Counted from the stretch's first letter, positions 34,766 through 50,957 are shown. The stretch is DNA of 50,957 nucleotides from a virus (IMGVR_UViG_3300017917_002885:1-50957); one strand, 5' to 3'. Notes: generated from the letters alone by a model not told the origin. Numbers and translations are program-made.

Positions 34766-36700
34766 TTAAGCGGAAATATCTACAATCTCACAATTTCCAT
34801 CCGAAGTACAGGCCAGGGTTTGAGTTCCGCTGGTCCCGTCTTCTGTTTCGTAGAAAGACAAATCTTCCCATCTAATGGACTTTGGCATCCTAGATACCAA
34901 ATCTTCGTACTCTTCTTTTGAGACTTCCTGATATGGAGCCTGCTTGTATGTGTGATCTGAATGTGGTAAGAATGAGATTCCAGATACCTCATCAAAATGC
35001 TTATAGACCCAGGCTCCAACTTCCATCCACTCTTCTTCTTTTACAGATACAGTAATAGATGGCTTATGTTCACACCATGCTCGCTGATAAACAAGCCAAA
35101 TATTTAAATGATCAATCGCTGTTAAATCATTTCTTGTAATTGCACCTTCTGGAGCCTTTACTGGAAATGAAAATACTGAAGTATCATTTGGCTTCATTAC
35201 ATCATCTTCTACTGGAATTCCAACTTCTGTCAAGAATGTTGTGATTGGATCCTTCTTATCTCCACGAACTGTTCTAATGTAATAATCAGAATGCCATGCA
35301 TGCATTCCTGAGCTAACCCCGACCAATTGAGATACTGTTCCAGAAGGCTTTACACATGTAATAGCTGCAGACTCAGGAATCCCAATTTTCCCTGCCTCTT
35401 CTGAGTTAATTGTTCTTGCATACTCACGAAGACCATTAAGTGTGTCCTCTAACTTTGTAAGATTCTCCTTACCAGAAAAGAACTTGTGGCCAAACTGTCC
35501 TGTAAGTGAAACTCCAAGTAGTCGTTCTTCTTCTGTATTATCTTTCCAAATCTTTCTTAAATACTTAAAGTCTGTTAGCGTTGATTGCCACGTTCCAAGA
35601 ATTGTTGCAAGGCGAACCTTATTTGCAACATCTTCAACTGTATCCTCTTCACGTAATACGACTTCTGAAAGATTACAAAACTGATAGGGACGTAAAATAA
35701 TCTCTGAGCATGGATTTGTTCCATAATGGATCTCAGGGTCTCTGCGACCATATTTAGCTGCTTGCGCCTGCGCTGCTGCGACATTATAGATTCCACGTTC
35801 CCCAGACTTCGAGTCATATAAAGATTTCCATTCTGCTATAAATTGTTCCATATCAGGTTTGCGTGAATATGCAACCGAATTGTTTGACAAAGCTCTTTGA
35901 GAATTATTCTCCCACCAATTACCAGACTTTGCCTGTGCCATTTCAATATCGTTAATATTAGAAAGAGAAATCATTGCTGAGCGACGAACTCCACCAACTA
36001 CAACAATTTCACCAATCTTACACATAATGTCATGTGCCTCAATTGGCTTAAGCTGACGACCTGTAGCATTCTTAAACTTTGCAATAGTAAAATCAAATAA
36101 GTTAATGAGTGGCTGTGGTCCTGATGAACGTCCACCCATTGTCTTAAGACGAGCACCAGCTGGTCTTAGCTTGCTAACATCAATTGCTGGAATGTGTCCT
36201 GTCCAAAGAAGTGCAAGAAGTTCACGATATGCTTTTGCCCAACCCTGTTTTGAATCTTCTACAACGATTACTGTGTCTGACTTTTCAAGTGTCTCTGGAA
36301 CGGCAGGAAGCTTATTAACATATTTATACTCAACAGAAAATCCAACACCCGTTCCACACATTAAGATATACATTGTCTCATCAAATGATCTTGGATTATC
36401 TACTGGAACAAATGAGCAGTTATATCCTGCAACGTGATCTCTATCTAATGCAGCACCTGCAGTCATTACTGATCTCATTGATGGCATGACATTGCGATTA
36501 AATACTGCAGACTTCATTTCTTCAATAAGCTTTATATCTGGGATATAGTTATTGTTTTTCTCAAGGTGAGAAAGCATAAAGTCAAAATATCTATCTACTG
36601 TTTCACCCCATGTTTCACGACGGTTTTCTTCTGGGATCCATCTTGCATATCGAGACAATGCAATAAAGTTTTCATATGGGTTTTCAATAGTTCTAGACAT
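34766..36700 (-). CDS. Class II (adenosylcobalamin-dependent) ribonucleotide reductase
   Basis: 644 residues, monomeric RTPR-like form. Active-site landmarks in order: 'GYNCSFVPVD' (redox Cys), 'GTGVGFSVEY', 'GGVRRSAMIS', 'GTNPCSEIIL' (thiyl-radical Cys), 'QFCNLSEVVL' (second redox Cys), 'CVKPSGTVSQLVG', and a C-terminal 'CTSDGNC' pair for re-reduction by thioredoxin-type donors. It supplies dNTPs for phage DNA without needing oxygen but needs B12, implying that the host makes or imports cobalamin. Shorter than the Lactobacillus enzyme (about 740). AAAGGTGA precedes the ATG. Confidence 0.95.
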   Translation of the reverse strand: MSRTIENPYENFIALSRYARWIPEENRRETWGETVDRYFDFMLSHLEKNNNYIPDIKLIEEMKSAVFNRNVMPSMRSVMTAGAALDRDHVAGYNCSFVPVDNPRSFDETMYILMCGTGVGFSVEYKYVNKLPAVPETLEKSDTVIVVEDSKQGWAKAYRELLALLWTGHIPAIDVSKLRPAGARLKTMGGRSSGPQPLINLFDFTIAKFKNATGRQLKPIEAHDIMCKIGEIVVVGGVRRSAMISLSNINDIEMAQAKSGNWWENNSQRALSNNSVAYSRKPDMEQFIAEWKSLYDSKSGERGIYNVAAAQAQAAKYGRRDPEIHYGTNPCSEIILRPYQFCNLSEVVLREEDTVEDVANKVRLATILGTWQSTLTDFKYLRKIWKDNTEEERLLGVSLTGQFGHKFFSGKENLTKLEDTLNGLREYARTINSEEAGKIGIPESAAITCVKPSGTVSQLVGVSSGMHAWHSDYYIRTVRGDKKDPITTFLTEVGIPVEDDVMKPNDTSVFSFPVKAPEGAITRNDLTAIDHLNIWLVYQRAWCEHKPSITVSVKEEEWMEVGAWVYKHFDEVSGISFLPHSDHTYKQAPYQEVSKEEYEDLVSRMPKSIRWEDLSFYETEDGTSGTQTLACTSDGNCEIVDISA

Positions 36701-40064: not shown

Positions 40065-40139
40065 TGGTAGCTCCAACGGGAATCGAACCCGTCTTGCCAG
40101 ATTGAAAATCTGAAGTCCTAACCGATAGACGATGGAGCC
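40065..40139 (-). tRNA. tRNA-Glu (TTC)
   Basis: Cloverleaf with acceptor GGCTCCA/TGGAGCT (first pair G-U), anticodon loop TTTTCAA, T-loop GTTCGAT, discriminator A and an encoded CCA. Confidence 0.92.
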
Positions 40140-40143
40140 AAGC

Positions 40144-40179
40144 GATTAATAAGTCTACGAGCAGACTAACTTATTAATC
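40144..40179. repeat. Long perfect hairpin upstream of tRNA-Glu
   Basis: Arms GATTAATAAGT and ACTTATTAATC (11 bp) continue into AGTCT/AGACT with one bulge around a 6-nt loop. It lies 4 nt from the tRNA 5' end. It may help RNA processing or act as a terminator on either strand. Confidence 0.5.
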
Positions 40180-40269
40180 ATAATACATGAGGATTTACAT
40201 AAGCCCGTTGTCCTCCAGTTGTCCCCGTCGGGAGTCAGTCTTTATACCTGCAACGCAACCTTAGTATCG

Positions 40270-40343
40270 TGCATCAAGTAGGACTCGAACCTACAACAAT
40301 CAGTTCCTAAGACTGACGCCTCTACCATTTGGGCTACTGACGC
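40270..40343 (-). tRNA. tRNA with anticodon TAG (Leu), class I body
   Basis: Acceptor GCGTCAG/TTGATGC, anticodon stem TCAGT/ACTGA with loop CTTAGGA (anticodon TAG, reading CUA), T-arm GTAGG-TTCGAGT-CCTAC, discriminator A. The variable arm is only about 5 nt, unlike normal leucine tRNAs, which have a long one. Confidence 0.75.
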
Positions 40344-40394
40344 AAAAACCTAACACACTAGTTGCTAGGGTAGTATTTTAATTATATCAAATTA

Positions 40395-40480
40395 TGGCGG
40401 AAGATACAGGATTCGAACCTGTGGACCTTTCGGACTACGATTTAGCAAACCGCTGCATTCGACCACTCTGCCAATCTTCC
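40395..40480 (-). tRNA. tRNA-Ser (GCT)
   Basis: Acceptor GGAAGAT/ATCTTCC, anticodon loop TTGCTAA (GCT), long class II variable arm, T-loop GTTCGAAT, discriminator G, encoded CCA. Confidence 0.92.
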
Positions 40481-40481
40481 G

Positions 40482-40563
40482 TACCCGTAATCGGACTTGA
40501 ACCGATACATCTTGCGATGGCAAATTTTAAGTCTGCTGTGTCTGCCTATTCCACCATACGGGC
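40482..40563 (-). tRNA. tRNA-Leu (TAA)
   Basis: Acceptor GCCCGTA/TACGGGT (first pair G-U), anticodon loop CTTAAAA (TAA), long class II variable arm, T-loop GTTCAAGT, discriminator A; CCA not encoded. Confidence 0.9.
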
Positions 40564-40567
40564 TTAG

Positions 40568-40641
40568 TGTTCCCAGTTGGGCTCGAACCAACGACCCGCA
40601 GATTAAAAGTCTGCTGCTCTACCAACTGAGCTATAGGAACC
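40568..40641 (-). tRNA. tRNA-Lys (TTT)
   Basis: Acceptor GGTTCCT/..GGGAAC, D-arm AGCTCAGTTGGTAGAGC, anticodon loop CTTTTAA (TTT), T-loop GTTCGAGC, discriminator A. Confidence 0.93.
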
Positions 40642-40644
40642 TAG

Positions 40645-40718
40645 CGATCTGTATGGGACTTGAACCCACGACCTCTACCGTGACAGGGTAGCGCTCTAAC
40701 CAACTGAGCTAACAGACC
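40645..40718 (-). tRNA. tRNA-Asp (GTC)
   Basis: Acceptor GGTCTGT/ACAGATC, anticodon loop CTGTCAC (GTC), T-loop GTTCAAGT, discriminator G as usual for Asp. Confidence 0.92.
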
Positions 40719-40722
40719 TTAG

Positions 40723-40793
40723 AGCGGATGATGAGAATCGAACTCACCCCTTCTGCTTGGAAGGCAGAGGCACTACCAATATGCAACATCCGC
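40723..40793 (-). tRNA. tRNA-Gly (TCC)
   Basis: Acceptor GCGGATG/CATCCGC (7 perfect pairs), anticodon loop CTTCCAA (TCC), T-loop GTTCGATT, discriminator T. Confidence 0.92.
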
Positions 40794-40934
40794 ATGAGAA
40801 CTCGGTTTATAGAGTGCCACACCGTAAGGCCGTGTACTTGTGCGTTCTCAACACAATGCAGTCGTCTAGCTAGGGCCGAACTGCACATACTTACTTCTGC
40901 AACCGACGGCAGGTGTAGAGGTATGGTCATCCAG
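40794..40934 (-). other. Structured spacer between tRNA-Asn and tRNA-Gly
   Basis: A 140-nt spacer without ORF or recognisable tRNA. It has two inverted repeats: GAGAAC (40796-40801) with GTTCTC (40844-40849), and TGCAGT (40857-40862) with ACTGCA (40880-40885). It would be part of the tRNA precursor; it may be a decayed tRNA or a separate RNA. Confidence 0.35.
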
Positions 40935-41007
40935 CTGGTCCAGCAGGTCTCGATCCTGCGACATCCGAATTAACAGTTCGGCGCTCTACCAACTGAGCTA
41001 TGGACCA
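40935..41007 (-). tRNA. tRNA-Asn (GTT)
   Basis: Acceptor TGGTCCA/TGGACCA, anticodon loop CTGTTAA (GTT), D-arm AGCTCAGTTGGTAGAGC, T-loop ATCGAGA, discriminator G. Confidence 0.92.
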
Positions 41008-41013
41008 AAAACA

Positions 41014-41032
41014 AAAGCCCTTGTCGGGCTTT
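41014..41032 (-). terminator. Hairpin at the head of the tRNA array
   Basis: Arms AAAGCCC/GGGCTTT with a 5-nt loop. On the minus strand a TTTTGTTTTT run follows, so it can stop transcription entering the tRNA array from the right. Confidence 0.6.
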
Positions 41033-41115
41033 GATTAAGAATATAAGTATATATTATATTATAAACATAGTCAATCTTTTTCGAATTATTTATTTAATCA
41101 AGGTATAATAGTTTT

Positions 41116-41394
41116 ATGATTAAGCATGAAGTTAGATCTATATCAAATTCTACTGCAACAAGCTTAGACCTGCCAGAAAATATTAGATCATCATACACTT
41201 TAGTTGTACAAAACGTAAATAACTCTGGATATATCTATATTGGAAATGAAGAGGTGACTACATCTAATTATGGATACAAGCTTTTCCCAGGTCAAGGTAT
41301 AACGATTGAGCTTCCTTCAAGAACAACAATGTACGCTATTTCATCTAACGGCGGAATGTCTCTAGCTATAATGGAGATTAGTCGTGCCATTTAA
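41116..41394 (+). CDS. Small beta-rich protein, predicted leaderless
   Basis: 92 residues. 'STATSLDLPENIRSSYTLVV', 'GYIYIGNEEVTTSNYGYKLF', 'PGQGITIELPSRTTMYAISS' resembles small virion-associated beta-sandwich proteins. TATAAT (41104-41109) ends exactly 6 nt before the ATG, with no ribosome site. It overlaps the next gene, with which it probably forms a pair. Function inferred only as structural. Confidence 0.6.
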   Translation: MIKHEVRSISNSTATSLDLPENIRSSYTLVVQNVNNSGYIYIGNEEVTTSNYGYKLFPGQGITIELPSRTTMYAISSNGGMSLAIMEISRAI

Positions 41395-41875
41395 TACAGT
41401 TGGAATTGGTGAAATTCCTTTTGGAGATGTTGTTCGATGGTCTCCAACATTTTCTGCTACTGGATTAACTTTTACTGGAACAAATAGCACGTATCCAACA
41501 TATGAATCGTATTATGTTAAGAATGGTCATATAGTATCTTTTTGGATCAAGGTCGATCTTACTACAGTAACAAACTTTGGAAATGGTCAATATAAAGTAG
41601 AGATACCTTTTGCGCCACTATCTGGAGCAATGAATCATTTTCTTGGATGGGTGTGGGTCAATCCAGCTGTTCCAGCTGATCAACTAAATGGACATATTCA
41701 AATACTTGCAGATCATATGCCTGGCGGAACAACATTAGATCTTCATTGGATTGGAGCAACTACAGCTGATCCAAAACCTACTATTGAGCATTTATTTTAT
41801 CAAGGGTATCCTGTAGATCTAACAACAAATTCTAAGATATACATTAATGGTACTTACATAGCGCAAGCTATCTAG
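41384..41875 (+). CDS. Beta-rich virion-like protein
   Basis: 163 residues from GTG at 41384 (GGAG 7 nt upstream). 'VVRWSPTFSATGLTFTGTNS', 'YYVKNGHIVSFWIKVDL' and 'INGTYIAQAI' recall C-terminal jelly-roll domains of tail fibres. It is the only plus-strand structural-looking gene pair with 41116, perhaps a decoration or receptor-binding module acquired separately. Function uncertain. Confidence 0.55.
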   Translation: MPFNTVGIGEIPFGDVVRWSPTFSATGLTFTGTNSTYPTYESYYVKNGHIVSFWIKVDLTTVTNFGNGQYKVEIPFAPLSGAMNHFLGWVWVNPAVPADQLNGHIQILADHMPGGTTLDLHWIGATTADPKPTIEHLFYQGYPVDLTTNSKIYINGTYIAQAI

Positions 41876-42152
41876 AACGTTTAGTAGTTTTTCTCATATG
41901 AGTGCGAACACGGTGGCAGTTAGAACATACCACTTCACATTTCTTAATCTCTTCATCTATCTTCTTCTTAGATAGTGTTGGAATCAGTTCCATAACATTC
42001 TTATGCTTAACCCCACGGACATGATCAAAGTCCATAACATAATAGGGGAAGTGTAGTTTACAATCGGCGCAAGGGTGTTTCTCCTTGTACTCTCGTATAT
42101 AAGTGGCGAGGGCTGCCTTTTGTTTGGCGACAGAAGTCTTTTCAGTCTTCAT
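41868..42152 (-). CDS. HNH endonuclease-like protein (copy 1)
   Basis: 94 residues. 'HPCADCKLHFPYYVMDFDHV' and 'CEVVCSNCHRVRTHMRKTTK' give the zinc-binding CxxC...CxxC and the HNH core (DFDH...N...H). Basic N- and C-termini for DNA contact. It is a free-standing, possibly homing-type nuclease beside the tRNA array, and overlaps the convergent gene by 8 nt. Confidence 0.8.
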   Translation of the reverse strand: MKTEKTSVAKQKAALATYIREYKEKHPCADCKLHFPYYVMDFDHVRGVKHKNVMELIPTLSKKKIDEEIKKCEVVCSNCHRVRTHMRKTTKRSR

Positions 42153-42227
42153 TACCCTAATTATATTATATAGCTCTTATTCAGTGCGAAAAAAAGTGCT
42201 TCGGCGGGAGAGAAGAACATTATTTTG

Positions 42228-42302
42228 TAGGGATACTCGGATTTGAACCGAGAGTCGGCAGTATATAAGACTGATGCTTTAACCAGATTAAGCTATATCC
42301 CC
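42228..42302 (-). tRNA. tRNA-Ile (TAT)
   Basis: Acceptor GGGGATA/TATCCCT (first pair G-U), anticodon loop CTTATAT (TAT, reads AUA), T-loop GTTCAAAT, discriminator A. Separate from the main array, between the two HNH genes; useful for an AT-rich phage in a host that rarely uses AUA. Confidence 0.88.
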
Positions 42303-43539: not shown

Positions 43540-43555
43540 TGTGGTCTATATCACA
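43540..43555 (+). promoter_or_regulatory. Crp/GlxR-like operator, cassette 1
   Basis: TGTGG-TCTATA-TCACA, one mismatch to TGTGA-N6-TCACA. Centre about 84 bp upstream of the predicted start of the next promoter. Lies in a 26-bp segment repeated at 44681-44706. Confidence 0.5.
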
Positions 43556-43602: not shown

Positions 43603-43625
43603 TTGTCAGACCCCCGTGTTAATCT
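43603..43625 (+). promoter_or_regulatory. Early promoter module 1
   Basis: TTGTCA (43603-43608), 11 nt (GACCCCCGTGT), TAATCT as a weak -10. Followed by ACGAAAGGAG and ATG 43659. Confidence 0.55.
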
Positions 43626-43658
43626 TAAGATATAGAAATTAAACGAAAGGAGTTTTAA

Positions 43659-43802
43659 ATGAACTCAATTTTTGAAGGTGGCACAATGAGTGCCGATGAA
43701 TTTGCTCGATTTGTAGAGCGTATGGGCGATGCCCGATGTGCAGAGTGTGGATACTGCGGATATATCCACCAGAATAATTGTTCAAAGAAAGTTGGTAAAT
43801 AA
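43659..43802 (+). CDS. Small CxxCxxC protein
   Basis: 47 residues; 'DARCAECGYCGYIHQNNCSK' is a compact Cys/His cluster, likely zinc binding. ACGAAAGGAG lies 6 nt before the ATG. First gene of the early operon. The C-terminal 'SKKVGK' is shared with the next gene. Function unknown. Confidence 0.65.
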   Translation: MNSIFEGGTMSADEFARFVERMGDARCAECGYCGYIHQNNCSKKVGK

Positions 43803-43803
43803 T

Positions 43804-43923
43804 ATGAACTATAATGATTACTATGATGAAATCTATCTTGATATCTATGAAGAATTTGGCGAAACCGCCGTTTCTGATGTATCATATGCTAAAGAATTAC
43901 AATCTAAGAAAGTAGGTAAATAA
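43804..43923 (+). CDS. Small acidic Tyr-rich protein
   Basis: 39 residues, MNYNDYYDEIYLDIYEEFGE then TAVSDVSYAKELQSKKVGK. It follows the previous stop by 1 nt; the shared end SKKVGK suggests duplication of the upstream tail, which also provides the AAAGAAAG ribosome site. Function unknown. Confidence 0.6.
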   Translation: MNYNDYYDEIYLDIYEEFGETAVSDVSYAKELQSKKVGK

Positions 43924-43925
43924 TA

Positions 43926-44096
43926 ATGGGATATGCTAGCGATTCTATCTATGGTCACTCTTATTCTAAGTGGGACACAATTCAAGAAGATGTTTCAGAC
44001 ATGTATCTTGATGATGTTGAAGATGAAGAGTTCGATGTTGAACTAGATGATGTCGAAGATGTAGAGTTCGACCTTGATGAGTGGGAGGAGATGTAA
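43926..44096 (+). CDS. Small highly acidic protein
   Basis: 56 residues; from about residue 20 mostly Asp/Glu/Val in repeats ('DDVEDEEFDVELDDVEDVEF'). Such a charge pattern is typical of DNA mimics, e.g. phage anti-restriction or anti-nucleoid proteins, but this is inference. The stop overlaps the next ATG (TAATG). Confidence 0.6.
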   Translation: MGYASDSIYGHSYSKWDTIQEDVSDMYLDDVEDEEFDVELDDVEDVEFDLDEWEEM

Positions 44097-44161
44097 TGGC
44101 TACGCTATTACTAACCGCCTCCGTATTGTTCGCTATTAAACAAATGAAAGAAGGTAAATAA
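44096..44161 (+). CDS. Membrane micro-protein
   Basis: 21 residues, MATLLLTASVLFAIKQMKEG then K. One hydrophobic helix and a basic end, TAATG coupled; the GGAGGAG at 44085-44091 precedes it. Function unknown. Confidence 0.5.
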   Translation: MATLLLTASVLFAIKQMKEGK

Positions 44162-44314
44162 ATGAGCGAAGGGATCTTTACACTAGAGTTAGGTCGCTAT
44201 GGTTTCATGCTCGACACAGAATGGTGCTATGTTGCGCTATCATGGGAGCTCATCGGCTTGTCAGTAGTCGGTGCTATAATCTATAAAGTAATCAAGAGAA
44301 AGAAGAATAAATAA
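44162..44314 (+). CDS. Small single-pass membrane protein
   Basis: 50 residues; 'WELIGLSVVGAIIYKVIKRK' forms a membrane helix with a basic cytoplasmic tail. Its codons 33-40 contain an internal copy of the early promoter (44258-44280). The start follows the previous TAA directly. Function unknown. Confidence 0.6.
   Translation: MSEGIFTLELGRYGFMLDTEWCYVALSWELIGLSVVGAIIYKVIKRKKNK
44258..44280 (+). promoter_or_regulatory. Early promoter module 14, inside a coding region
   Basis: TTGTCA (44258-44263), 11 nt (GTAGTCGGTGC), TATAAT (44275-44280). 34 nt before ATG 44315; no ACGAAAGG leader. Confidence 0.5.
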
Positions 44315-44464
44315 ATGAAGTGTAATGTAGAAGGTTGCGAATCAACCGACCTAGTATATAGCGGAGTAGATGCGTTCTGCTTACAAGTACCTACAGAAAA
44401 GTATTGCTATGCATGCTCTAATAGAGGTGTAGCGCAAGAGTTAGAGAATGCGTTAAGACAATGA
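44315..44464 (+). CDS. Small Cys-rich (zinc-ribbon-like) protein
   Basis: 49 residues; 'MKCNVEGCESTDLVYSGVDA' and 'FCLQ...KYCYACSNRGVAQE' give CxxxxC and CxxC pairs. Probably a zinc ribbon. Stop overlaps next ATG (ATGA). Function unknown. Confidence 0.62.
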   Translation: MKCNVEGCESTDLVYSGVDAFCLQVPTEKYCYACSNRGVAQELENALRQ

Positions 44465-44571
44465 ATAGACTACTAACTACTATCGTTCAGTTATTTATCG
44501 CTATCCCCGCCTTATATATGGCTCGCATGGTATGGCGTGACATGCGTGAGATGTGGCACGAATCACACTAA
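44461..44571 (+). CDS. Small membrane protein
   Basis: 36 residues, MNRLLTTIVQLFIAIPALYM then ARMVWRDMREMWHESH. One N-terminal helix and an amphipathic Trp/Arg-rich tail. ATGA coupled. Function unknown. Confidence 0.58.
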   Translation: MNRLLTTIVQLFIAIPALYMARMVWRDMREMWHESH

Positions 44572-44576
44572 CCTAA

Positions 44577-44651
44577 CGGCGTGTCGCCTTGACAAAAGGC
44601 GATCCGCCCGCAGTCTTTTGCGGGCTTGTCAAGTCAATATACGGCGTGTCG
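44577..44651 (+). repeat. CGGCGTGTCG repeats with a nested hairpin
   Basis: CGGCGTGTCG at 44577-44586 and 44642-44651. Between them a nested hairpin: outer CTTGACAA (44588-44595) with TTGTCAAG (44626-44633), inner GCCCGCA (44606-44612) with TGCGGGC (44619-44625). It probably ends the preceding operon. Confidence 0.6.
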
Positions 44652-44690
44652 CAAAAATACCCTGAATTTTCCTAAAGTTTGACTAGTCAG

Positions 44691-44722
44691 TGTGGCCTAC
44701 ATCACATGTGACCTACACCACA
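44691..44722 (+). promoter_or_regulatory. Tandem Crp/GlxR-like operators, cassette 2
   Basis: TGTGG-CCTACA-TCACA (44691-44706) and TGTGA-CCTACA-CCACA (44707-44722), abutting. Each has one mismatch to the TGTGA-N6-TCACA consensus, and both have the central TA favoured by GlxR. Confidence 0.55.
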
Positions 44723-44754
44723 AAGTCTAATATGTCCGATTTATACCCCTCAAT

Positions 44755-44777
44755 ATGTCAGACCCCCCTGCTACAAT
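44755..44777 (+). promoter_or_regulatory. Early promoter module 2
   Basis: ATGTCA (44755-44760), 11 nt (GACCCCCCTGC), TACAAT (44772-44777); then ACGAAAGGGG and ATG 44810. Confidence 0.65.
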
Positions 44778-44809
44778 AGTGGCATATCAACAAACGAAAG
44801 GGGTCAAAA

Positions 44810-44965
44810 ATGACTCAACTAACAGAAGAATTATTTAGCAAGATTGTGCATGAATATCACAACGGAGGCGTTAAGTCTTCATATGGTTTAAATAAATATA
44901 CACGCAAGGAATTGCTTGCGTTCCTTATCCGTTCTACACAATGCAATTGCATTAACTGTCTATAA
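44810..44965 (+). CDS. Small protein with C-terminal Cys cluster
   Basis: 51 residues, MTQLTEELFSKIVHEYHNGG ... 'KYTRKELLAFLIRSTQCNCI' NCL. Helical with a CxCxxC end. Function unknown. Confidence 0.62.
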   Translation: MTQLTEELFSKIVHEYHNGGVKSSYGLNKYTRKELLAFLIRSTQCNCINCL

Positions 44966-44981
44966 GAAAGAAGGTCAATTC

Positions 44982-45110
44982 ATGAACCTAGATGAATATA
45001 AAGCGCATGTAGAAGCGCAACGCAAGGAAAGCTTGCTAAAGGCTATCGCTACAATGTCGGTGGCTAATGCTACAATGTCACAATTGTTCAACACTAAGGA
45101 GGCAGACTAA
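44982..45110 (+). CDS. Small helical protein
   Basis: 42 residues from ATG 44982 (AGAAGG upstream), MNLDEYKAHVEAQRKESLLK ... The second half encodes both protein (ATMSVANATMSQLFN) and an early promoter copy (45054-45076). TAATG overlap with the next gene. Function unknown. Confidence 0.58.
   Translation: MNLDEYKAHVEAQRKESLLKAIATMSVANATMSQLFNTKEAD
45054..45076 (+). promoter_or_regulatory. Early promoter module 15, inside a coding region
   Basis: ATGTCG (45054-45059), 11 nt (GTGGCTAATGC), TACAAT (45071-45076); 33 nt before ATG 45110, with AAGGAGG between. Confidence 0.55.
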
Positions 45111-45247
45111 TGCTAAAAGATGTAGTAGCACAATTGTGCGATGTATGCGATGAGGTCGCATTTGTTTTTGATAACGATGGATGGGTAGAGATTCATCCTT
45201 GTGCATGTGTTGATGGTATGAGCGACTTAGATTGGATAAATGAATGA
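45110..45247 (+). CDS. Small Cys-rich protein
   Basis: 45 residues; 'LCDVCDEVAFVFDNDGWVEI' 'HPCACVDG' gives CxxC and CxC, probably zinc binding. AAGGAGG lies 9 nt before the ATG. Function unknown. Confidence 0.62.
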   Translation: MLKDVVAQLCDVCDEVAFVFDNDGWVEIHPCACVDGMSDLDWINE

Positions 45248-45432
45248 TGACTAGAAAAGACTATAAGCGTTTTGCTTATCTACTTAATTCAATGCATCAC
45301 GGATTTCCCGCCGAGATGCTTAGCATTGATGCTAAGAAATTCTTAGTAAATAATATGTGCGAAATATTCGAAACCGATAACCCACGATTTGACCGAGCCA
45401 AATTCAAGGAGGCCGTATATGCAGAACGATAA
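45244..45432 (+). CDS. Actinophage MTRKDY-family protein (copy 1)
   Basis: 62 residues; 'MMTRKDYKRFAYLLNSM' and 'FETDNPRFDRAKFKEAV'. This N- and C-terminal pattern is a widespread small family in actinophages, of unknown function. ATGA overlap with the previous stop. A paralogue lies at 46417-46608. Confidence 0.75.
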   Translation: MMTRKDYKRFAYLLNSMHHGFPAEMLSIDAKKFLVNNMCEIFETDNPRFDRAKFKEAVYAER

Positions 45433-45526
45433 CGATCCATTTGGTTTTTCTAAGGCTATTGAGATTGACCATCTAAGCGATGAAGACCTAAAAACTTTAG
45501 AAGAAATTTTTAAAGATTTTAAATAA
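45419..45526 (+). CDS. Small acidic micro-protein
   Basis: 35 residues, MQNDNDPFGFSKAIEIDHLS then DEDLKTLEEIFKDFK. GGAGG lies 7 nt upstream, within the end of the previous gene. Function unknown. Confidence 0.58.
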   Translation: MQNDNDPFGFSKAIEIDHLSDEDLKTLEEIFKDFK

Positions 45527-45530
45527 ATAG

Positions 45531-45633
45531 CGGCGTGTCGGCTTGACAAAAGCTGATCCGCCCGCAAAAGCTGCGGGGTCGGGCGTGTCGTTATGAAAGA
45601 GTTATAAATTCCCTGGAATTTTACGGCGTGTCG
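45531..45633 (+). repeat. CGGCGTGTCG repeats and GC hairpin
   Basis: CGGCGTGTCG at 45531-45540 and 45624-45633, with GGGCGTGTCG at 45581-45590. Hairpin CCCGCA-AAAGC-TGCGGG at 45561-45577. TTGACA follows two of the copies after 2 nt. Confidence 0.6.
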
Positions 45634-45660
45634 ATTTGACAGACAATTCGGACATTTTGA

Positions 45661-45676
45661 TGTGATGTAAAACACA
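45661..45676 (+). promoter_or_regulatory. Crp/GlxR-like operator, cassette 3
   Basis: TGTGA-TGTAAA-ACACA, one mismatch in the right half. Centre about 85 bp upstream of the predicted start. Confidence 0.45.
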
Positions 45677-45724
45677 TGGCTTGAGCGTCTTATTATATGG
45701 AATTACTGCCTAGTAAGTAGAGAT

Positions 45725-45747
45725 TTGTCAGACCCCTTTGGTACAAT
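45725..45747 (+). promoter_or_regulatory. Early promoter module 3
   Basis: TTGTCA (45725-45730), 11 nt (GACCCCTTTGG), TACAAT (45742-45747); ACGAAAGG and ATG 45779 follow. Confidence 0.65.
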
Positions 45748-45778
45748 ATCACCATAACAACAACGAAAGGCGGACACC

Positions 45779-45982
45779 ATGTCAGCAAATGTTTATTCTA
45801 TCGAATCCCTACTAGTGGGAAAAAACTATCACTCACGAACCTTGCAGGGCGAAATTGTATCTGCAGAAAAACATCCTCAAGCAATTTGGTATGAGGGTTG
45901 CGAAACCTATCTTGTAGAGGTTGCGCCTAATAGCGGATATGGTCGCACATATCGCACAGTAGCCGTCAAGGTGCCCGACTAA
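45779..45982 (+). CDS. Small beta-rich early protein
   Basis: 67 residues, MSANVYSIESLLVGKNYHSR ... 'GEIVSAEKHPQAIWYEGCET' YLVEV... It may be an SH3-like or small beta-barrel. Served by module 3. Function unknown. Confidence 0.65.
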   Translation: MSANVYSIESLLVGKNYHSRTLQGEIVSAEKHPQAIWYEGCETYLVEVAPNSGYGRTYRTVAVKVPD

Positions 45983-46005
45983 TTGTCGGTGCCTTGCGCT
46001 ATAAT
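45983..46005 (+). promoter_or_regulatory. Early promoter module 4
   Basis: TTGTCG (45983-45988), 11 nt (GTGCCTTGCGC), TATAAT (46000-46005). The upstream element begins right after the stop codon and forms the 3' arm of an inverted repeat (CCGAC-TAATT-GTCGG). Confidence 0.65.
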
Positions 46006-46036
46006 CTCTCTATAAGCAAAACACGAAAGGAAAACT

Positions 46037-46195
46037 ATGAAAACAAAACTCAACGAAATGTATTACTCAACAGATGAAGGTTTATTCTGTTGTGATGAAT
46101 TTCAGTATCGTTCATACTGCGAGGCTCATGATGAATTCATGGGTTGCTACTATTGCGAATTCGACTACACACAGCCTTGCGGTTGTGAAGAATAA
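46037..46195 (+). CDS. Small Cys-rich acidic protein
   Basis: 52 residues; 'GLFCCDEFQYRSYCEAHDEF' and 'GCYYCEFDYTQPCGCEE' hold eight cysteines in CC, CxxC and CxC groups. Likely metal binding. Preceded by ACGAAAGGA. Function unknown. Confidence 0.65.
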   Translation: MKTKLNEMYYSTDEGLFCCDEFQYRSYCEAHDEFMGCYYCEFDYTQPCGCEE

Positions 46196-46207
46196 GAAAG
46201 GGAAACT

Positions 46208-46417
46208 ATGTATAAAATAACTTGCCAATATGATTTCGAGGAGAGCCCTCATTGGTCTGCAACATATGAAAACGAATTTGGTGCATGGGAAAGTTTTTTC
46301 CGATTCACCGACTGGGGTATGGCTAACGAATACTCAACAGTTAATATCTACACGCCAACAGGCAAATGCTACACAAAAGTTTTTTATCGAGATGGAAGAG
46401 TGCAGGTGAAGGCATAA
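46208..46417 (+). CDS. Small beta-strand protein
   Basis: 69 residues, MYKITCQYDFEESPHWSATY ... 'YSTVNIYTPTGKCYTKVFYR'. Possibly a small ferredoxin-like or beta-sheet protein. Stop overlaps the next ATG by 1 nt. Function unknown. Confidence 0.65.
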   Translation: MYKITCQYDFEESPHWSATYENEFGAWESFFRFTDWGMANEYSTVNIYTPTGKCYTKVFYRDGRVQVKA

Positions 46418-46608
46418 TGATGACTAGAAAAGATTATATCGCCACCGCTGAAATTCTAAAGTATATGAGCAACAAAACTCACCCCGCTTTATTTTCTAAA
46501 GTCGTTACAGATTTTGCGGAGATGTTTGCAAAAGATAATCCACGCTTTGATGTAAAACGATTTCACGAAGCAAGCAACTACACAACAATTTTTGGAAAGG
46601 TAGAATAA
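46417..46608 (+). CDS. Actinophage MTRKDY-family protein (copy 2)
   Basis: 63 residues; 'MMTRKDYIATAEILKYM' and 'FAKDNPRFDVKRFHEAS' match copy 1 (45244-45432) at both ends. Frames extending upstream to 46366 are unlikely because the TAATG overlap marks the start. Function unknown. Confidence 0.75.
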   Translation: MMTRKDYIATAEILKYMSNKTHPALFSKVVTDFAEMFAKDNPRFDVKRFHEASNYTTIFGKVE

Positions 46609-46610
46609 AA

Positions 46611-46739
46611 ATGGGATACATTGAATTTAATAAAGATGGCAATTGGGTTTCATGGGAAGAGTTAAGTGATGAAGCTAAATTTGATATTGAATGGGAGTTA
46701 CTAAATGAAAATGCGTTTAATCATGAGCGAGAAAGTTAA
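46611..46739 (+). CDS. Small acidic Trp-rich protein
   Basis: 42 residues, MGYIEFNKDGNWVSWEELSD then EAKFDIEWELLNENAFNHERES. Overlaps the basic protein that follows. Function unknown. Confidence 0.58.
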   Translation: MGYIEFNKDGNWVSWEELSDEAKFDIEWELLNENAFNHERES

Positions 46740-46836
46740 ACGAATTCAGGAGTTGCGTCGATCAAATGCAGCGACTGCAATTCCATCGAAGAAAAAATAC
46801 ACACGCAAGCGCAAGCATAAAAATTCATATGAATGA
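46705..46836 (+). CDS. Small very basic protein
   Basis: 43 residues, MKMRLIMSEKVKRIQELRRS ... 'KKKYTRKRKHKNSYE'. Encoded 35 nt inside the end of the acidic gene in another frame. The charge suggests nucleic-acid binding. Ribosome site weak; moderate confidence. Confidence 0.48.
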   Translation: MKMRLIMSEKVKRIQELRRSNAATAIPSKKKYTRKRKHKNSYE

Positions 46837-46849
46837 ATAAATATGCGGG

Positions 46850-46866
46850 CCCGCAAAAGCTGCGGG
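46850..46866 (+). terminator. Recurrent GC hairpin after early operon
   Basis: CCCGCA-AAAGC-TGCGGG, same element as at 45561-45577; preceded by GCGGGCCCGC. No U-run, so the terminator role is uncertain. Confidence 0.45.
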
Positions 46867-46873
46867 GGGCGCA

Positions 46874-46889
46874 TGTGAATTACGTCACA
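46874..46889 (+). promoter_or_regulatory. Crp/GlxR-like operator, cassette 5 (perfect)
   Basis: TGTGA-ATTACG-TCACA, full match to the consensus halves. Lies between the GC hairpin and early promoter module 5. Confidence 0.65.
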
Positions 46890-46929
46890 TTTTAAAAATG
46901 CCCTGAACTTTCGGCGTGTCGATTATGAT

Positions 46930-46952
46930 TTGTCAGACCCCAATGGTATATT
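46930..46952 (+). promoter_or_regulatory. Early promoter module 5
   Basis: TTGTCA (46930-46935), 11 nt (GACCCCAATGG), TATATT (46947-46952); ACGAAAGG and ATG 46981. CGGCGTGTCG at 46912-46921 precedes it. Confidence 0.62.
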
Positions 46953-46980
46953 TCTCTTAAATCAAACGAAAGGCAAACTC

Positions 46981-47130
46981 ATGGGAAACCTACTTGAAAA
47001 CCTATGCACAACATGTGCAGGAATATCCAACACAATTGTTTCATCTCTTTGCGATACTCATTACTTTGAGTGGGCTGAAGAAAAAATGTATATGGAATTA
47101 GATTGCTCAACTGAAGGGATGTATCTCTAA
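46981..47130 (+). CDS. Small Cys-containing protein
   Basis: 49 residues from ATG 46981, MGNLLENLCTTCAGISNTIV ... CDTHYFEWAEEKMYM... An ATG at 46930 inside the promoter is rejected. 'CTTC' plus C and H residues could bind a metal. TAATG overlap with the next gene. Confidence 0.62.
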   Translation: MGNLLENLCTTCAGISNTIVSSLCDTHYFEWAEEKMYMELDCSTEGMYL

Positions 47131-47333
47131 TGGAATATAAAGTATATTGCATGAACGGCGAATGCAGCCAATATATCATAATGGATGCGTATGAATATGG
47201 CTATTATCAAGATGATTTCATGTGTCATGAATGCTATGATGCAGATGAAATGGCATTCTATGAATTAACTGGATGGGATGACAGCGATGCTCTTGCTTCC
47301 GCTGGATTTGGTTCAGACGAAGATTATATGTAA
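47130..47333 (+). CDS. Small Cys/Tyr-rich acidic protein
   Basis: 67 residues; 'YCMNGECSQYIIMD' and 'FMCHECYDADEMAFYE' form a four-Cys zinc-ribbon-like pattern, followed by an acidic tail. Function unknown. Confidence 0.65.
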   Translation: MEYKVYCMNGECSQYIIMDAYEYGYYQDDFMCHECYDADEMAFYELTGWDDSDALASAGFGSDEDYM

Positions 47334-47338
47334 ATAGT

Positions 47339-47466
47339 CGGCGTGTCCTCTTGACAAGATCAAGGGGATGCCCGCAAAGTTGTGGGGGCAAAAAGCTCTT
47401 TAAGTCAAGTTACGACACACCCTGGGAATTGTGAGATTAAACACAAAATATATTTGCGACACGCCG
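47339..47466 (+). repeat. CGGCGTGTCG-type repeats, direct and inverted
   Basis: CGGCGTGTC at 47339-47347 followed by TTGACA, and the inverted copy CGACACGCCG at 47457-47466. A CCCGCA...TGTGGG hairpin (47371-47386) lies between. Confidence 0.55.
47430..47445 (+). promoter_or_regulatory. Crp/GlxR-like operator, cassette 6
   Basis: TGTGA-GATTAA-ACACA, one mismatch. Centre about 73 bp upstream of the predicted start. Confidence 0.45.
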
Positions 47467-47481
47467 AGATTAAACTATTAA

Positions 47482-47504
47482 ATGTCGGTGGCTTCGGCTA
47501 TAAT
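47482..47504 (+). promoter_or_regulatory. Early promoter module 6
   Basis: ATGTCG (47482-47487), 11 nt (GTGGCTTCGGC), TATAAT (47499-47504); ACGAAAGG and ATG 47535. Confidence 0.65.
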
Positions 47505-47534
47505 ACTCTCATACCAACAAACGAAAGGCACGAA

Positions 47535-47756
47535 ATGTCAAATGTAATTCGAGTACCGCACACAATTAACTTCATGGCAGAAATCAACATAGATAAGGTT
47601 GAGGCAAGCTTGCTTCCTACTCTTATCTCTCTTTCACCAGAAGAACTTACCGACATGGTTAAGCAAACTACAATTCATGCTCTTGGCTTCACAAAGTTTA
47701 TTGAAGATGTCAATGAGGGTTCCGCAGGCTTCGCCCGTCTAACTCTCGCAGAATAA
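47535..47756 (+). CDS. Small early protein
   Basis: 73 residues from ATG 47535, MSNVIRVPHTINFMAEINID ... 'LISLSPEELTDMVKQTTIHA' LGFTKFIEDV... A reading starting at 47382 crosses the promoter and is rejected. Function unknown. Confidence 0.66.
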   Translation: MSNVIRVPHTINFMAEINIDKVEASLLPTLISLSPEELTDMVKQTTIHALGFTKFIEDVNEGSAGFARLTLAE

Positions 47757-47762
47757 TTAAAT

Positions 47763-47800
47763 GGGGGTACTGATTAAATGTCAGTACCCCCTGATATAAT
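47763..47800 (+). promoter_or_regulatory. Early promoter module 7 fused to a perfect hairpin
   Basis: ATGTCA (47778-47783), 11 nt (GTACCCCCTGA), TATAAT (47795-47800). TCAGTACCCCC (47781-47791) pairs with GGGGGTACTGA (47763-47773): an 11-bp perfect inverted repeat with a 7-nt loop. Confidence 0.65.
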
Positions 47801-47831
47801 CTCTCTATCAACCAACGAACAAAGGAATAAC

Positions 47832-48107
47832 ATGGGACACACAACCGCAGTAGGACTTGCAGAAGAACTATCACTAGAGGCAGGACTTGCTTATCACCTC
47901 CAGGCTAATCATTATCCGCCAGTACCAGTATCTATGGTACAGCCATGCATCGATGCTATCGATGCATTCTACGAAGAAGACTATGGTCGTGAGATTAACT
48001 TGCCAGAAGGTATCTCATGGCGTGGGCAAACTTCATGTCCTGCACACGCTATCGTAGAGGCTCACCACCTAGACGCATGGCTACCAATGGAGGAGTACTA
48101 TGAGTAA
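47832..48107 (+). CDS. Early protein, alpha-helical
   Basis: 91 residues from ATG 47832, MGHTTAVGLAEELSLEAGLA ... 'MVQPCIDAIDAFYEEDYGRE'. The in-frame ATG at 47778 lies inside the promoter. Acidic, mostly helical. Function unknown. Confidence 0.66.
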   Translation: MGHTTAVGLAEELSLEAGLAYHLQANHYPPVPVSMVQPCIDAIDAFYEEDYGREINLPEGISWRGQTSCPAHAIVEAHHLDAWLPMEEYYE

Positions 48108-48240
48108 TCTATATGCTATCTTAGCTGAAATGCACCCAAACGGGGACTTTACAGAATCCGATCTATGGGAGGCTATTGCAGAATCTGAAGGCGTAGATGT
48201 CTATGATATCATGGACGGCGACCTCACAGAATACTTGTGA
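48100..48240 (+). CDS. Small acidic protein
   Basis: 46 residues, MSNLYAILAEMHPNGDFTES then DLWEAIAESEGVDVYDIMDG DLTEYL. GGAGG precedes the ATG inside the previous gene. Its stop codon TGA is part of the following Crp-like site. Function unknown. Confidence 0.62.
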   Translation: MSNLYAILAEMHPNGDFTESDLWEAIAESEGVDVYDIMDGDLTEYL

Positions 48241-48251
48241 TATATCTCACA
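48236..48251 (+). promoter_or_regulatory. Crp/GlxR-like operator, cassette 8 (perfect)
   Basis: TGTGA-TATATC-TCACA; overlaps the stop codon of the preceding gene. Centre about 63 bp upstream of the predicted start. Confidence 0.65.
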
Positions 48252-48277
48252 ATTAAATAATTAAATAAACACGATAA

Positions 48278-48300
48278 ATGTCGGTGGGGTCGTGTATAAT
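48278..48300 (+). promoter_or_regulatory. Early promoter module 8
   Basis: ATGTCG (48278-48283), 11 nt (GTGGGGTCGTG), TATAAT (48295-48300); CGAAAGGA and ATG 48330. Confidence 0.65.
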
Positions 48301-48329
48301 ACTCACCATAACCAATCGAAAGGAAACAA

Positions 48330-48467
48330 ATGCTAGAAGTAGGACAAACCTTCACAACCGCCAAGTCTGGGGTTACAGGAATAATCAAGGAAATCGTTGC
48401 GAACCCAACAGGAACACAGCGTCTTCTTCTTGATGTAAATGGAACAGACCGCTGGACAACAGCATAA
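48330..48467 (+). CDS. Small beta-rich protein
   Basis: 45 residues, MLEVGQTFTTAKSGVTGIIK then EIVANPTGTQRLLLDVNGTD RWTTA. Looks like an SH3/KOW-type small barrel. Function unknown. Confidence 0.65.
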   Translation: MLEVGQTFTTAKSGVTGIIKEIVANPTGTQRLLLDVNGTDRWTTA

Positions 48468-48546
48468 CTAAATAATCGAAACAGGGACAGTTTCAGAGAG
48501 TGTTCTCGTCCAATGTCGTAAGTAAGAACTCTCTCCCTTCGGGGAA

Positions 48547-48569
48547 ATGTCAGACCAATCCGCTATAAT
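48547..48569 (+). promoter_or_regulatory. Early promoter module 9
   Basis: ATGTCA (48547-48552), 11 nt (GACCAATCCGC), TATAAT (48564-48569); ACGAAAGAGG and ATG 48600. A TCCC-TTCG-GGGA hairpin sits just upstream. Confidence 0.65.
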
Positions 48570-48599
48570 ACAACTAACCAACAAACGAAAGAGGAAAAA

Positions 48600-49001
48600 A
48601 TGTCAAGAGCGTTATCAGTTAAGGTGGCAACACCAAAGGTCATCAAGGCACTTGAGGCAAAGTTAGAGGCTGGCACAAAGGCTGTTGTATCTAACGAGAA
48701 GAAGCGTAAAGAATACACAAAGGTAGAAGCAACTTGGGCTAAAGAAGTTGCAGAACTCATCATCAAGAATATCTCAAAGGCAGAAGTTTCTGCTGATGAA
48801 AACTGGCGTGGTGAAATTACTGCTCGTTTCTCAGTTCCTGCTGGCGTAATCAAACTACCTGCAAAGCCAGAGTTAAACTTGGAGCAAGAACTTGGTCGCT
48901 ACGAAGTTCAGGAGATTGAGAACGCAATTCGTATTCTTAAAATGACAGATGAGGAAACTGTAAATGCCTCAACTTTTAAGACTATCGCTCAATATCTATA
49001 A
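48600..49001 (+). CDS. Early protein, helical and lysine-rich
   Basis: 133 residues, MSRALSVKVATPKVIKALEA ... 'EKKRKEYTKVEATWAKEVAE', ending '...NASTFKTIAQYL'. N-terminal basic helices, C-terminal helix with acidic face ('ELGRYEVQEIENAIRILKMT'). Resembles small conserved early proteins of actinophages, but function is not recognised. Confidence 0.68.
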   Translation: MSRALSVKVATPKVIKALEAKLEAGTKAVVSNEKKRKEYTKVEATWAKEVAELIIKNISKAEVSADENWRGEITARFSVPAGVIKLPAKPELNLEQELGRYEVQEIENAIRILKMTDEETVNASTFKTIAQYL

Positions 49002-49012
49002 ATAAATATAGC

Positions 49013-49048
49013 GGGGGCTAGACAAAATCTAGCCCCCAATGCTATAAT
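49013..49048 (+). promoter_or_regulatory. Early promoter module 10 fused to a perfect hairpin
   Basis: TATAAT (49043-49048) preceded by inverted repeat GGGGGCTAGA (49013-49022) / TCTAGCCCCC (49028-49037). The usual TGTCAG is replaced by ATCTAG within the arm; ATG 49076 follows. Confidence 0.5.
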
Positions 49049-49075
49049 TTCTATCCCTACTAACAAAGGAATAAA

Positions 49076-49339
49076 ATGGAAAACCGTTTCCGTGTTGAGA
49101 TGTATGATGAAGTAAAGTCTAACGATCTCACAATCTATTCAGAGCAGGGTGTTGATAAAGAATATCTCACCGAGCTAATCTATTCAAACATATCACGGTT
49201 TGATGGTAACATCAAGGCGTTTGTATATGACACACTAAAGAAGAAGAAGACCACTGGAGCATTTGTTCCTATGGAGATAACACAATCAATTAAAAAGCAG
49301 ATTGGTCTCCCAACCGCCGTCCTTCTTGATTCTATTTAA
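49076..49339 (+). CDS. Small early protein
   Basis: 87 residues, MENRFRVEMYDEVKSNDLTI ... 'KAFVYDTLKKKKTTGAFVPM'. Alternating strands and helices. Ribosome site AAAGGA. Function unknown. Confidence 0.66.
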   Translation: MENRFRVEMYDEVKSNDLTIYSEQGVDKEYLTELIYSNISRFDGNIKAFVYDTLKKKKTTGAFVPMEITQSIKKQIGLPTAVLLDSI

Positions 49340-49344
49340 TAATA

Positions 49345-49366
49345 GCGGGCCCTTCGGGGCCCGCTT
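49345..49366 (+). terminator. Intrinsic terminator with UUCG loop
   Basis: GCGGGCCC-TTCG-GGGCCCGC followed by TT; 5 nt after the preceding gene's stop region. Confidence 0.7.
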
Positions 49367-49428
49367 GTGCCCGTACAGCTGTGGGGGCCTTTTGCGTCTT
49401 ACGTCAAGCTTCAAAACACCCTGGATCC

Positions 49429-49444
49429 TGTGAATTTGATCACA
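49429..49444 (+). promoter_or_regulatory. Crp/GlxR-like operator, cassette 11 (perfect)
   Basis: TGTGA-ATTTGA-TCACA; centre about 74 bp upstream of the predicted start of module 11. Confidence 0.65.
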
Positions 49445-49481
49445 TATCAGATCGTGAGACTGAATCCAACTAGACTAGTAA

Positions 49482-49504
49482 ATGTCAGACCCACCTGTTA
49501 TAAT
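49482..49504 (+). promoter_or_regulatory. Early promoter module 11
   Basis: ATGTCA (49482-49487), 11 nt (GACCCACCTGT), TATAAT (49499-49504); CCGAAAGGA and ATG 49535. Confidence 0.65.
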
Positions 49505-49534
49505 TATCCAATCAAACCAACCGAAAGGAAAATC

Positions 49535-50548
49535 ATGGCTCACAATCTCGAAATCGAAAACGGCGAAGTTGCATTTGCTCTTCGTGGCGCTCCTGCATGG
49601 CACAACCTTGCAAATCGTATCTTCTCACAAGATGAAGAAGTTACAACTCAACTCATGTTAGATGAGGCAAAACTATCTAATTGGAATGTTCGCCTTTCTC
49701 CACTAACTGAGCACATTTCTTCAGAATGGAATGATGTTTCTAATTCTCACCTTGTATTGCGTACTAATCCATTTAATGGCGGAACTGATGTTCTTGCCAA
49801 TGTTGGTAAGCGCTATAAGGTAGTTCAGAATGAGGAACTATTCGCATTTGCTGATGCAATTCATGATGCAGACCCTAACTGCCGTTGGGAATCTGCTGGC
49901 TCTCTTCGTCAGGGTAAAGTTGTATTTGGTACTGTTGAGATTCCCCGCACAATGGTTCTAGACCCACAAGGTGCAAATGATGAGACAAAACTTTATCTTA
50001 TCGTATGGACTTCACACGACGGTTCTGTTGCGGTGCAGGCTGCTGTTACTCCTGTTCGTGTTGTCTGCCAAAACACATTGAATCTTGCAATGCGTAATGC
50101 AAAGCAATCTTTCAAAATTCGTCACACTCAGACCGCTGAGGGCAAAATCCAAATTGCTCGTGAAACTCTTGGCCTTACTCTTGGCTATTTTGATGAGTTC
50201 GAAAAGCAGGCTAAGGAACTATTTGAAATGGAAGTTTCAGATAAGAAGTTCCACGAAATTATTCGTGCAATGTATCCAAAGCCAGATGAGGATAAGTCTA
50301 AGCAGGCTCTTACTAAGTGGGAAAATAAAGTTCTCTTAATTGACGACATTTATTTCAACTCACCAACTCAGACCAATATCAAGGGCACCGCTTGGGGTGT
50401 TGTTAATGCTCTTACTGAGCGCATTGACTATTTCCGTTCTGCTCGTGGTAATGGTGAAACACTGATGGCGGGTGCAAGTGGTTTCGACCCAGTTGTTACC
50501 GCAGAAAAAAATAAAATCGTTAAGCAAGTTATGGCGCTAGCGAAATAA
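49535..50548 (+). CDS. DUF932 family protein
   Basis: 337 residues from ATG 49535 (CGAAAGGA upstream). 'GEVAFALRGAPAWHNLANRI', 'NPFNGGTDVLANVGKRYKVV', 'WESAGSLRQGKVVFGTVEIP' and 'TPVRVVCQNTLNLAMRNAKQ' are hallmarks of the phage/plasmid DUF932 (TIGR03299-like) family. It is common in phages and plasmids; the biochemical function is not settled. Largest gene of the early region. More GC-rich codons than its neighbours, suggesting high expression. Confidence 0.88.
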   Translation: MAHNLEIENGEVAFALRGAPAWHNLANRIFSQDEEVTTQLMLDEAKLSNWNVRLSPLTEHISSEWNDVSNSHLVLRTNPFNGGTDVLANVGKRYKVVQNEELFAFADAIHDADPNCRWESAGSLRQGKVVFGTVEIPRTMVLDPQGANDETKLYLIVWTSHDGSVAVQAAVTPVRVVCQNTLNLAMRNAKQSFKIRHTQTAEGKIQIARETLGLTLGYFDEFEKQAKELFEMEVSDKKFHEIIRAMYPKPDEDKSKQALTKWENKVLLIDDIYFNSPTQTNIKGTAWGVVNALTERIDYFRSARGNGETLMAGASGFDPVVTAEKNKIVKQVMALAK

Positions 50549-50614
50549 AAATAAAATCCTGAGCATGATTTAAAACTGCTCTCCCTCTAGGGATCTTCAA
50601 AGCTTCTTTTATAA

Positions 50615-50642
50615 ATAAATATTCATGCTAATGAATATTTAT
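50615..50642. repeat. AT-rich 12-bp perfect inverted repeat
   Basis: ATAAATATTCAT and ATGAATATTTAT with a 4-nt loop, in the gap after the DUF932 gene. Could be an operator, a weak terminator or an unwinding element. Confidence 0.5.
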
Positions 50643-50672
50643 GCAGGCCCGCAATATTGAAGGCAGTTTTTA

Positions 50673-50688
50673 TGTGTTACGTATCACA
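50673..50688 (+). promoter_or_regulatory. Crp/GlxR-like operator, cassette 12
   Basis: TGTGT-TACGTA-TCACA, one mismatch. Centre about 54 bp upstream of the predicted start of module 12. Confidence 0.5.
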
Positions 50689-50705
50689 TTTAAAATGCCC
50701 TGAAT

Positions 50706-50728
50706 TTGTCAGTGGGGTACGGTATAAT
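50706..50728 (+). promoter_or_regulatory. Early promoter module 12
   Basis: TTGTCA (50706-50711), 11 nt (GTGGGGTACGG), TATAAT (50723-50728); ACGAAAGAGG and ATG 50755. Confidence 0.65.
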
Positions 50729-50754
50729 ATGACAATACAACGAAAGAGGTAAAA

Positions 50755-50957
50755 ATGGAAAAATGGACCAAGTATTCATTTGTCTGCGACCCAGATGCTT
50801 GTGATACTTTAATTGAATATACAGTTAGAGATGATCGTGGAATTCCAAATGTGATGAGCATCACATGTCCTTGTGGCAGATTCTTATCACTTTTGTCAGT
50901 GGCAGATGCTACAATACTCCCATCAACAACAACGAAAGAGGAACCAATGATTGAAAA
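50755..50957 (+). CDS. Small Cys-containing early protein (runs off the window)
   Basis: At least 67 codons, MEKWTKYSFVCDPDACDTLI ... 'ITCPCGRFLSLLSVADATIL' PSTTTKEEP. Two Cys pairs (CxxxxC and CxC) suggest a zinc ribbon. From codon about 33 the DNA also contains a perfect Crp-like site and a complete promoter module, and an in-frame ATG at 50947 follows its ribosome site. The end lies outside the window. Confidence 0.6.
   Translation, partial: MEKWTKYSFVCDPDACDTLIEYTVRDDRGIPNVMSITCPCGRFLSLLSVADATILPSTTTKEEPMIE
50850..50865 (+). promoter_or_regulatory. Crp/GlxR-like operator, cassette 13 (perfect, intragenic)
   Basis: TGTGA-TGAGCA-TCACA inside the 50755 reading frame; centre about 64 bp upstream of the predicted start of module 13. 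Confidence 0.6.
50893..50915 (+). promoter_or_regulatory. Early promoter module 13 (intragenic)
   Basis: TTGTCA (50893-50898), 11 nt (GTGGCAGATGC), TACAAT (50910-50915); ACGAAAGAGGA and ATG 50947, which is in frame with the surrounding ORF. Confidence 0.6.

Follow-up and report, generated by a model that had tools for sequence, protein, structure and literature searches.

PafBC promoters are already known as a bacterium's own repair switch. The LexA-independent recA promoter P1 (RecA-NDp) is described by the consensus 'tTGTCRgtg - 8 nt - TannnT' (PMC5656591), and the RecA-NDp class, which is bound by PafBC, is said to reach past mycobacteria to other Actinobacteria (PMC8223512). The activator, a damage regulator that redirects the housekeeping polymerase, works by sigma adaptation, in which PafB binds the -26 motif and PafC contacts domain 4 of SigA, and it is activated by single-stranded DNA (ssDNA) in its WYL domains (PMC11804915). 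A second element of relevance is TGTGA-N6-TCACA, which is recognised by CRP and by the actinobacterial regulators CRP-Mt and GlxR; the CRP of S. coelicolor is listed as one that does not bind it (PMC5449483). Among phages, the cluster K mycobacteriophages carry a repeated motif, SAS/ESAS, before many non-structural genes. Among the papers on PafBC and phages that were listed, judged by title and abstract, no earlier description of phage promoters read by PafBC was found. Herein, an array of RecA-NDp-kind promoters with phased CRP-type sites is described from a virus (IMGVR_UViG_3300017917_002885:1-50957), whose stretch of 50,957 nucleotides is termed the window; the array is real and conserved among relatives.

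The promoter array and its closest counterparts

The pattern TGTCRG-N10-TANNNT occurs 14 times in the window, exclusively on the plus strand between 43604 and 50915, against 0.87 expected and a largest count of 4 in 100 shuffles. All of the elements of uniform geometry reported by the initial annotation, which had counted at least 14, are thus present on one strand; its gap of 11 nt after (T/A)TGTC(A/G) is equivalent to 10 nt after TGTC(A/G)G, with coordinates shifted by one. When the -10 hexamer was required to match TATAAT in at least five of six positions, 13 plus-strand copies followed TGTCRG at a spacing of 10, while each of the other spacings from 4 to 24 gave at most two.

Every element ends 26-34 nt 5' of an ATG, and what precedes these ATGs could plausibly bind the ribosome, (A)CGAAAGG being the commonest form. 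The first element, TGTCAG-N10-TAATCT (43604-43625, next ATG 43659), has a weak -10. TGTCAG-N10-TATAAT is found at 44259-44280 (ATG 44315), 47779-47800 (ATG 47832), 48548-48569 (ATG 48600), 49483-49504 (ATG 49535) and 50707-50728 (ATG 50755), and TGTCGG-N10-TATAAT at 45984-46005 (ATG 46037), 47483-47504 (ATG 47535) and 48279-48300 (ATG 48330). TGTCAG-N10-TACAAT stands at 44756-44777 (ATG 44810), 45726-45747 (ATG 45779) and 50894-50915 (ATG 50947, in a gene cut by the contig end), TGTCGG-N10-TACAAT at 45055-45076 (ATG 45110), and TGTCAG-N10-TATATT at 46931-46952 (ATG 46981). The copies at 44259 and 45055 overlap the preceding open reading frame and had been labelled intragenic, a label that does not hold, for the ATGs at 44315 and 45110 stand 34 and 33 nt past the respective -10. 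The largest gene of the region, preceded by the element at 49483, is located at 49535-50548 on the plus strand and encodes a DUF932 protein of 337 amino acids that is 52.6% identical to its counterpart in Streptomyces phage Jay2Jay, and the small proteins of the array gave no notable match to Pfam or PHROG. The early timing ascribed to these promoters is presumed from their position.

Only one unit of the array is devoid of TGTCRG. It had been regarded as a variant module, and it does differ from the rest, but it proved to be an ordinary promoter, TAGACA-N18-TATAAT (49019-49048, plus strand, 11 of 12 matches), before the open reading frame at 49076. Elsewhere in the array, no hexamer at a spacing of 17 exceeds three of six matches to TTGACA, two copies at a spacing of 18 reach four or five, and in most copies a -35-like hexamer is missing at spacings 16-18. 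The view that TGTC(A/G) is not an ordinary -35 is thereby borne out, and the further suggestion of an extra factor is upheld, as a repeated promoter array without an ordinary -35 implies one. A sigma-70 pair with a short spacer was rejected, since the array has no -35, and SOS control was likewise rejected because the number of LexA-type boxes in the window does not exceed chance.

In letters and in spacing, the 14 exact matches coincide with the published RecA-NDp/P1 consensus. The shared features comprise the TGTCRG core, the ten bases, TAnnnT, the missing -35 and the -26 location; by arithmetic, a -10 hexamer set at -12 to -7 places TGTCRG at -28 to -23. The 'tg' that follows TGTCRG in the consensus is the commonest choice among relatives, and about half of the copies in the window have AC or TA. 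In contrast with RecA-NDp promoters, the array lies on a phage, is repeated, carries CRP-type sites at most copies and stands before small genes of the phage, not before repair genes, with LexA-type boxes at chance level. The cluster K comparison leads to a different outcome: SAS, with GGGATAGGAGCCC close to the start codon, has a consensus without TGTCRG or a -10 box, whereas the sequences before the start codons of the array are mostly (A)CGAAAGG, in agreement with the earlier judgement that the two elements are different.

Several other features were noted in the window. The sequence GGCGTGTCG occurs six times on the plus strand, in the array region only (44578, 44643, 45532, 45582, 45625 and 46913), where its copies lie 5' of promoters and close to hairpins rich in G+C. 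Next to the array region stand nine tRNA genes, encoded on the minus strand (40065-42302), and 34766-36700 encodes a ribonucleotide-reductase-like protein whose barrel domain is matched only in part.

Phased CRP/GlxR-type palindromes

A second element, absent from the initial annotation, is constituted by CRP/GlxR-type sites 5' of the array promoters. With at most one mismatch, TGTGA-N6-TCACA occurs 11 times in the window (2.2 expected), always between 43540 and 50865, and nine of the 14 promoters have such a palindrome with its centre 26-57 nt 5' of TGTC. Perfect palindromes stand at 46874-46889, 48236-48251, 49429-49444 and 50850-50865, with centres 49, 35, 46 and 36 nt before TGTC, respectively. 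The remaining ones are TGTGGTCTATATCACA at 43540-43555 (56 nt), a tandem pair beginning at 44691 and 44707 (44691-44722), the second of which is 41 nt from TGTC, and the palindromes at 45661-45676 (57 nt), 47430-47445 (45 nt) and 50673-50688 (26 nt).

Among relatives, 731 CRP-type sites were counted in 79.5 kb just 5' of the motif, compared with 105 in 1034 kb elsewhere. Measured from the palindrome centre, TGTC is mostly 26, 35-36, 45-46 or 56-57 nt away, a minor group lies at 41 nt, and the best period is about 10.5 bp (R = 0.75, whereas none of 10000 random draws exceeded 0.25). This helical phasing implies that a protein bound at these sites would touch the initiation complex. Class I CRP-dependent promoters similarly display TGTGA-N6-TCACA at helical intervals upstream, but there the site goes with a -35, whose place in the array is taken by a -26 element.

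Distribution among relatives and cultured phages

In a scan of IMG/VR, the N10 pattern accompanied by CGAAAGG was found in at least 119 stretches, often with several matches each, while the N11 and N9 patterns were found in 20 and 4 stretches with a single match each. In the fetched DNA, spacing 10 occurred 688 times and other spacings 2-28 times, in loci that had been chosen by the motif; for this reason, 80 relatives were then picked by their DUF932 protein, independently of the motif. All 80 of these carry the array with at least three copies (range 6-20), amounting to 1141 sites on the plus strand and one on the minus strand, and in all 80 the DUF932 gene has its own TGTCRG-N10 promoter 25-33 nt 5' of the ATG. 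The consensus, aaWTGTCRGTGS...TGnTATAAT, was derived from 290 non-redundant promoters of relatives not chosen by motif, with near-copies removed, which as related sequences are not independent of one another. Within it, the two positions after TGTCRG, which were free in the search, are mostly T (0.66) and G (0.52), and the extended -10 TG, equally free, is common (T 0.59, G 0.77).

Certain lineages depart from this design. CRP-type sites are missing from the arrays of contigs L116 and L069 and from the two TGTCRG-N10 copies of L061. In L069, moreover, a -35 element is present, as TTGACA stands two bases 5' of TGTCRG in some copies (TTGACA-N2-TGTCAG-N10-TATACT), and the resulting 18-nt -35/-10 pair could possibly be read by the housekeeping sigma alone, with or without an activator. 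Separately, two GC-rich viral contigs (L270:5151-5190 and L271:1155-1191) have TGTCRGTG-N8-TAnnnT followed directly by the LexA-type box CGAACnnnnGTTCG, an arrangement that resembles double-controlled host repair promoters.

The DUF932 region of Jay2Jay is comparable to the window in that short genes with their own promoters accompany a DUF932 gene. Its promoters, in contrast, are ordinary -35/-10 ones: TTGNNN-N17-TA(G/T)ANT stands 12 times before short genes, with no TGTCRG-N10 and no CRP-type site in the stretch, whereas the same comparison gave 0 and 13, respectively, on the plus strand of the window's array. The Jay2Jay promoters themselves are alike, about 12 conforming to TTGTnn-N17-TAGACT, and many of them follow a GC-rich stretch with CCGGACA. 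The array is absent from all 13 sampled cultured actinophage genomes with DUF932, and in the DUF932 tree these 13 phages are separated from a single group that contains the array-bearing sequences (support 98/99). The ordinary promoters of Jay2Jay, the absence from cultured phages and the separate tree group together lead to the view that a promoter class seems to have been exchanged between related phage lineages. A single TGTCGG-N10-TAACGT was also noted immediately 5' of the DUF932 gene of Microbacterium phage Megan (NC_073368.1, 41670-41691), within the gap there, perhaps by chance.

Candidate readers and proposed mechanism

The portal protein of the window shares about 60% identity with those of Streptomyces phages, and WhiB is encoded in 16 of 20 related records; on these grounds an actinobacterial host is very probable. 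The G+C content of 38% fits low-GC freshwater Actinobacteriota, the host genus and freshwater source being what we infer, and the clade that carries the array probably consists of freshwater actinophages. A genome scan with the strict pattern for host promoters yielded 21 scattered matches, none of them in an identified actinobacterium.

The initial annotation had named a phage regulator and an alternative sigma factor among the possible readers of the array. No WYL domain was found in the 20 related viral records, some of which may be fragments, and neither Sigma70_r2 nor HTH_Crp_2 was found in these possibly fragmentary records or in the window; on the basis of these three Pfam domains, a phage-encoded sigma factor, WYL protein or Crp regulator is not supported, and the promoters match a host consensus, RecA-NDp/P1. 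The lack of such phage domains points to host PafBC, host SigA and host CRP as the most likely readers, and control of the array by host PafBC is probably the best explanation of the promoters' design. Points that weigh against it are the scattered outcome of the genome scan, the TTGACA of L069 and the missing array in the 13 cultured phages. An activator of the phage's own, for instance the WhiB-like protein of the relatives, might instead bind TGTCRG together with the housekeeping sigma, so that host PafBC is not needed. The presence of WhiB in those 16 records and the small array proteins of unassigned function leave some room for this reading, but Rhodococcus phage Trina has WhiB without the array, and coincidence would have to account for how exactly the promoters fit the RecA-NDp consensus of hosts, which makes such an activator unlikely.

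Temperate actinophages are known to have repeated operators at their promoters. On this general ground, TGTCRG could be the operator of a phage or host repressor, as had also been suggested, with SigA alone reading the extended -10 (TGnTATAAT), whose TG is indeed common in the consensus. A repressor would, however, tolerate shifts, while the spacing to the -10 is invariant and the orientation single, which is what an activator sitting within the polymerase complex should show. The analysis turned up no repressor candidate, and the operator reading, conceivable as it is, fits poorly and appears quite improbable. Very improbable is a reading of the promoters by ClgR or some further factor of the host, or by more than one, for although ClgR has been described as recognising the P1 motif and the induction of DNA-repair genes is impaired in a clgR mutant (PMC5656591), later work locates PafB, within the initiation complex, at the -26 motif (PMC11804915).

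Under the preferred reading, control by host PafBC, the TGTC(A/G)G at about -28 to -23 would occupy the place of the PafBC -26 element, followed by a -10 that is frequently extended by TG, with no -35. The ssDNA arising during infection, be it at DNA ends, in replication or as host DNA is broken down, would load the WYL domains of host PafBC, and the loaded activator would allow host RNA polymerase with its housekeeping sigma to start at the array promoters. Host CRP/GlxR on the helically phased upstream sites may help to recruit the polymerase, and the host damage sensor would thereby be used by the phage to turn on its small-gene region.

Taken as a whole, one proposal is favoured slightly over its negation: that a whole clade of freshwater actinophages gave up ordinary -35/-10 promoters in favour of the sigma-adaptation kind and now has its small-gene programme under PafBC, the ssDNA sensor of the host, with host CRP acting as co-activator and the damage alarm turned into a sensor of infection. 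The clade would then represent a natural library of hundreds of PafBC-type promoters, and comparing it with Jay2Jay-type promoters would allow promoter exchange among related phages to be studied as a natural experiment. Moreover, PafBC and CRP would be linked in one promoter, a pairing that is directly testable. The resemblance of the array to the host's emergency DNA-damage promoters suggests that the host damage sensor switches the phage genes on, and, if true, a phage lineage using the PafBC promoter design en bloc would amount to a viral capture of a stress response.
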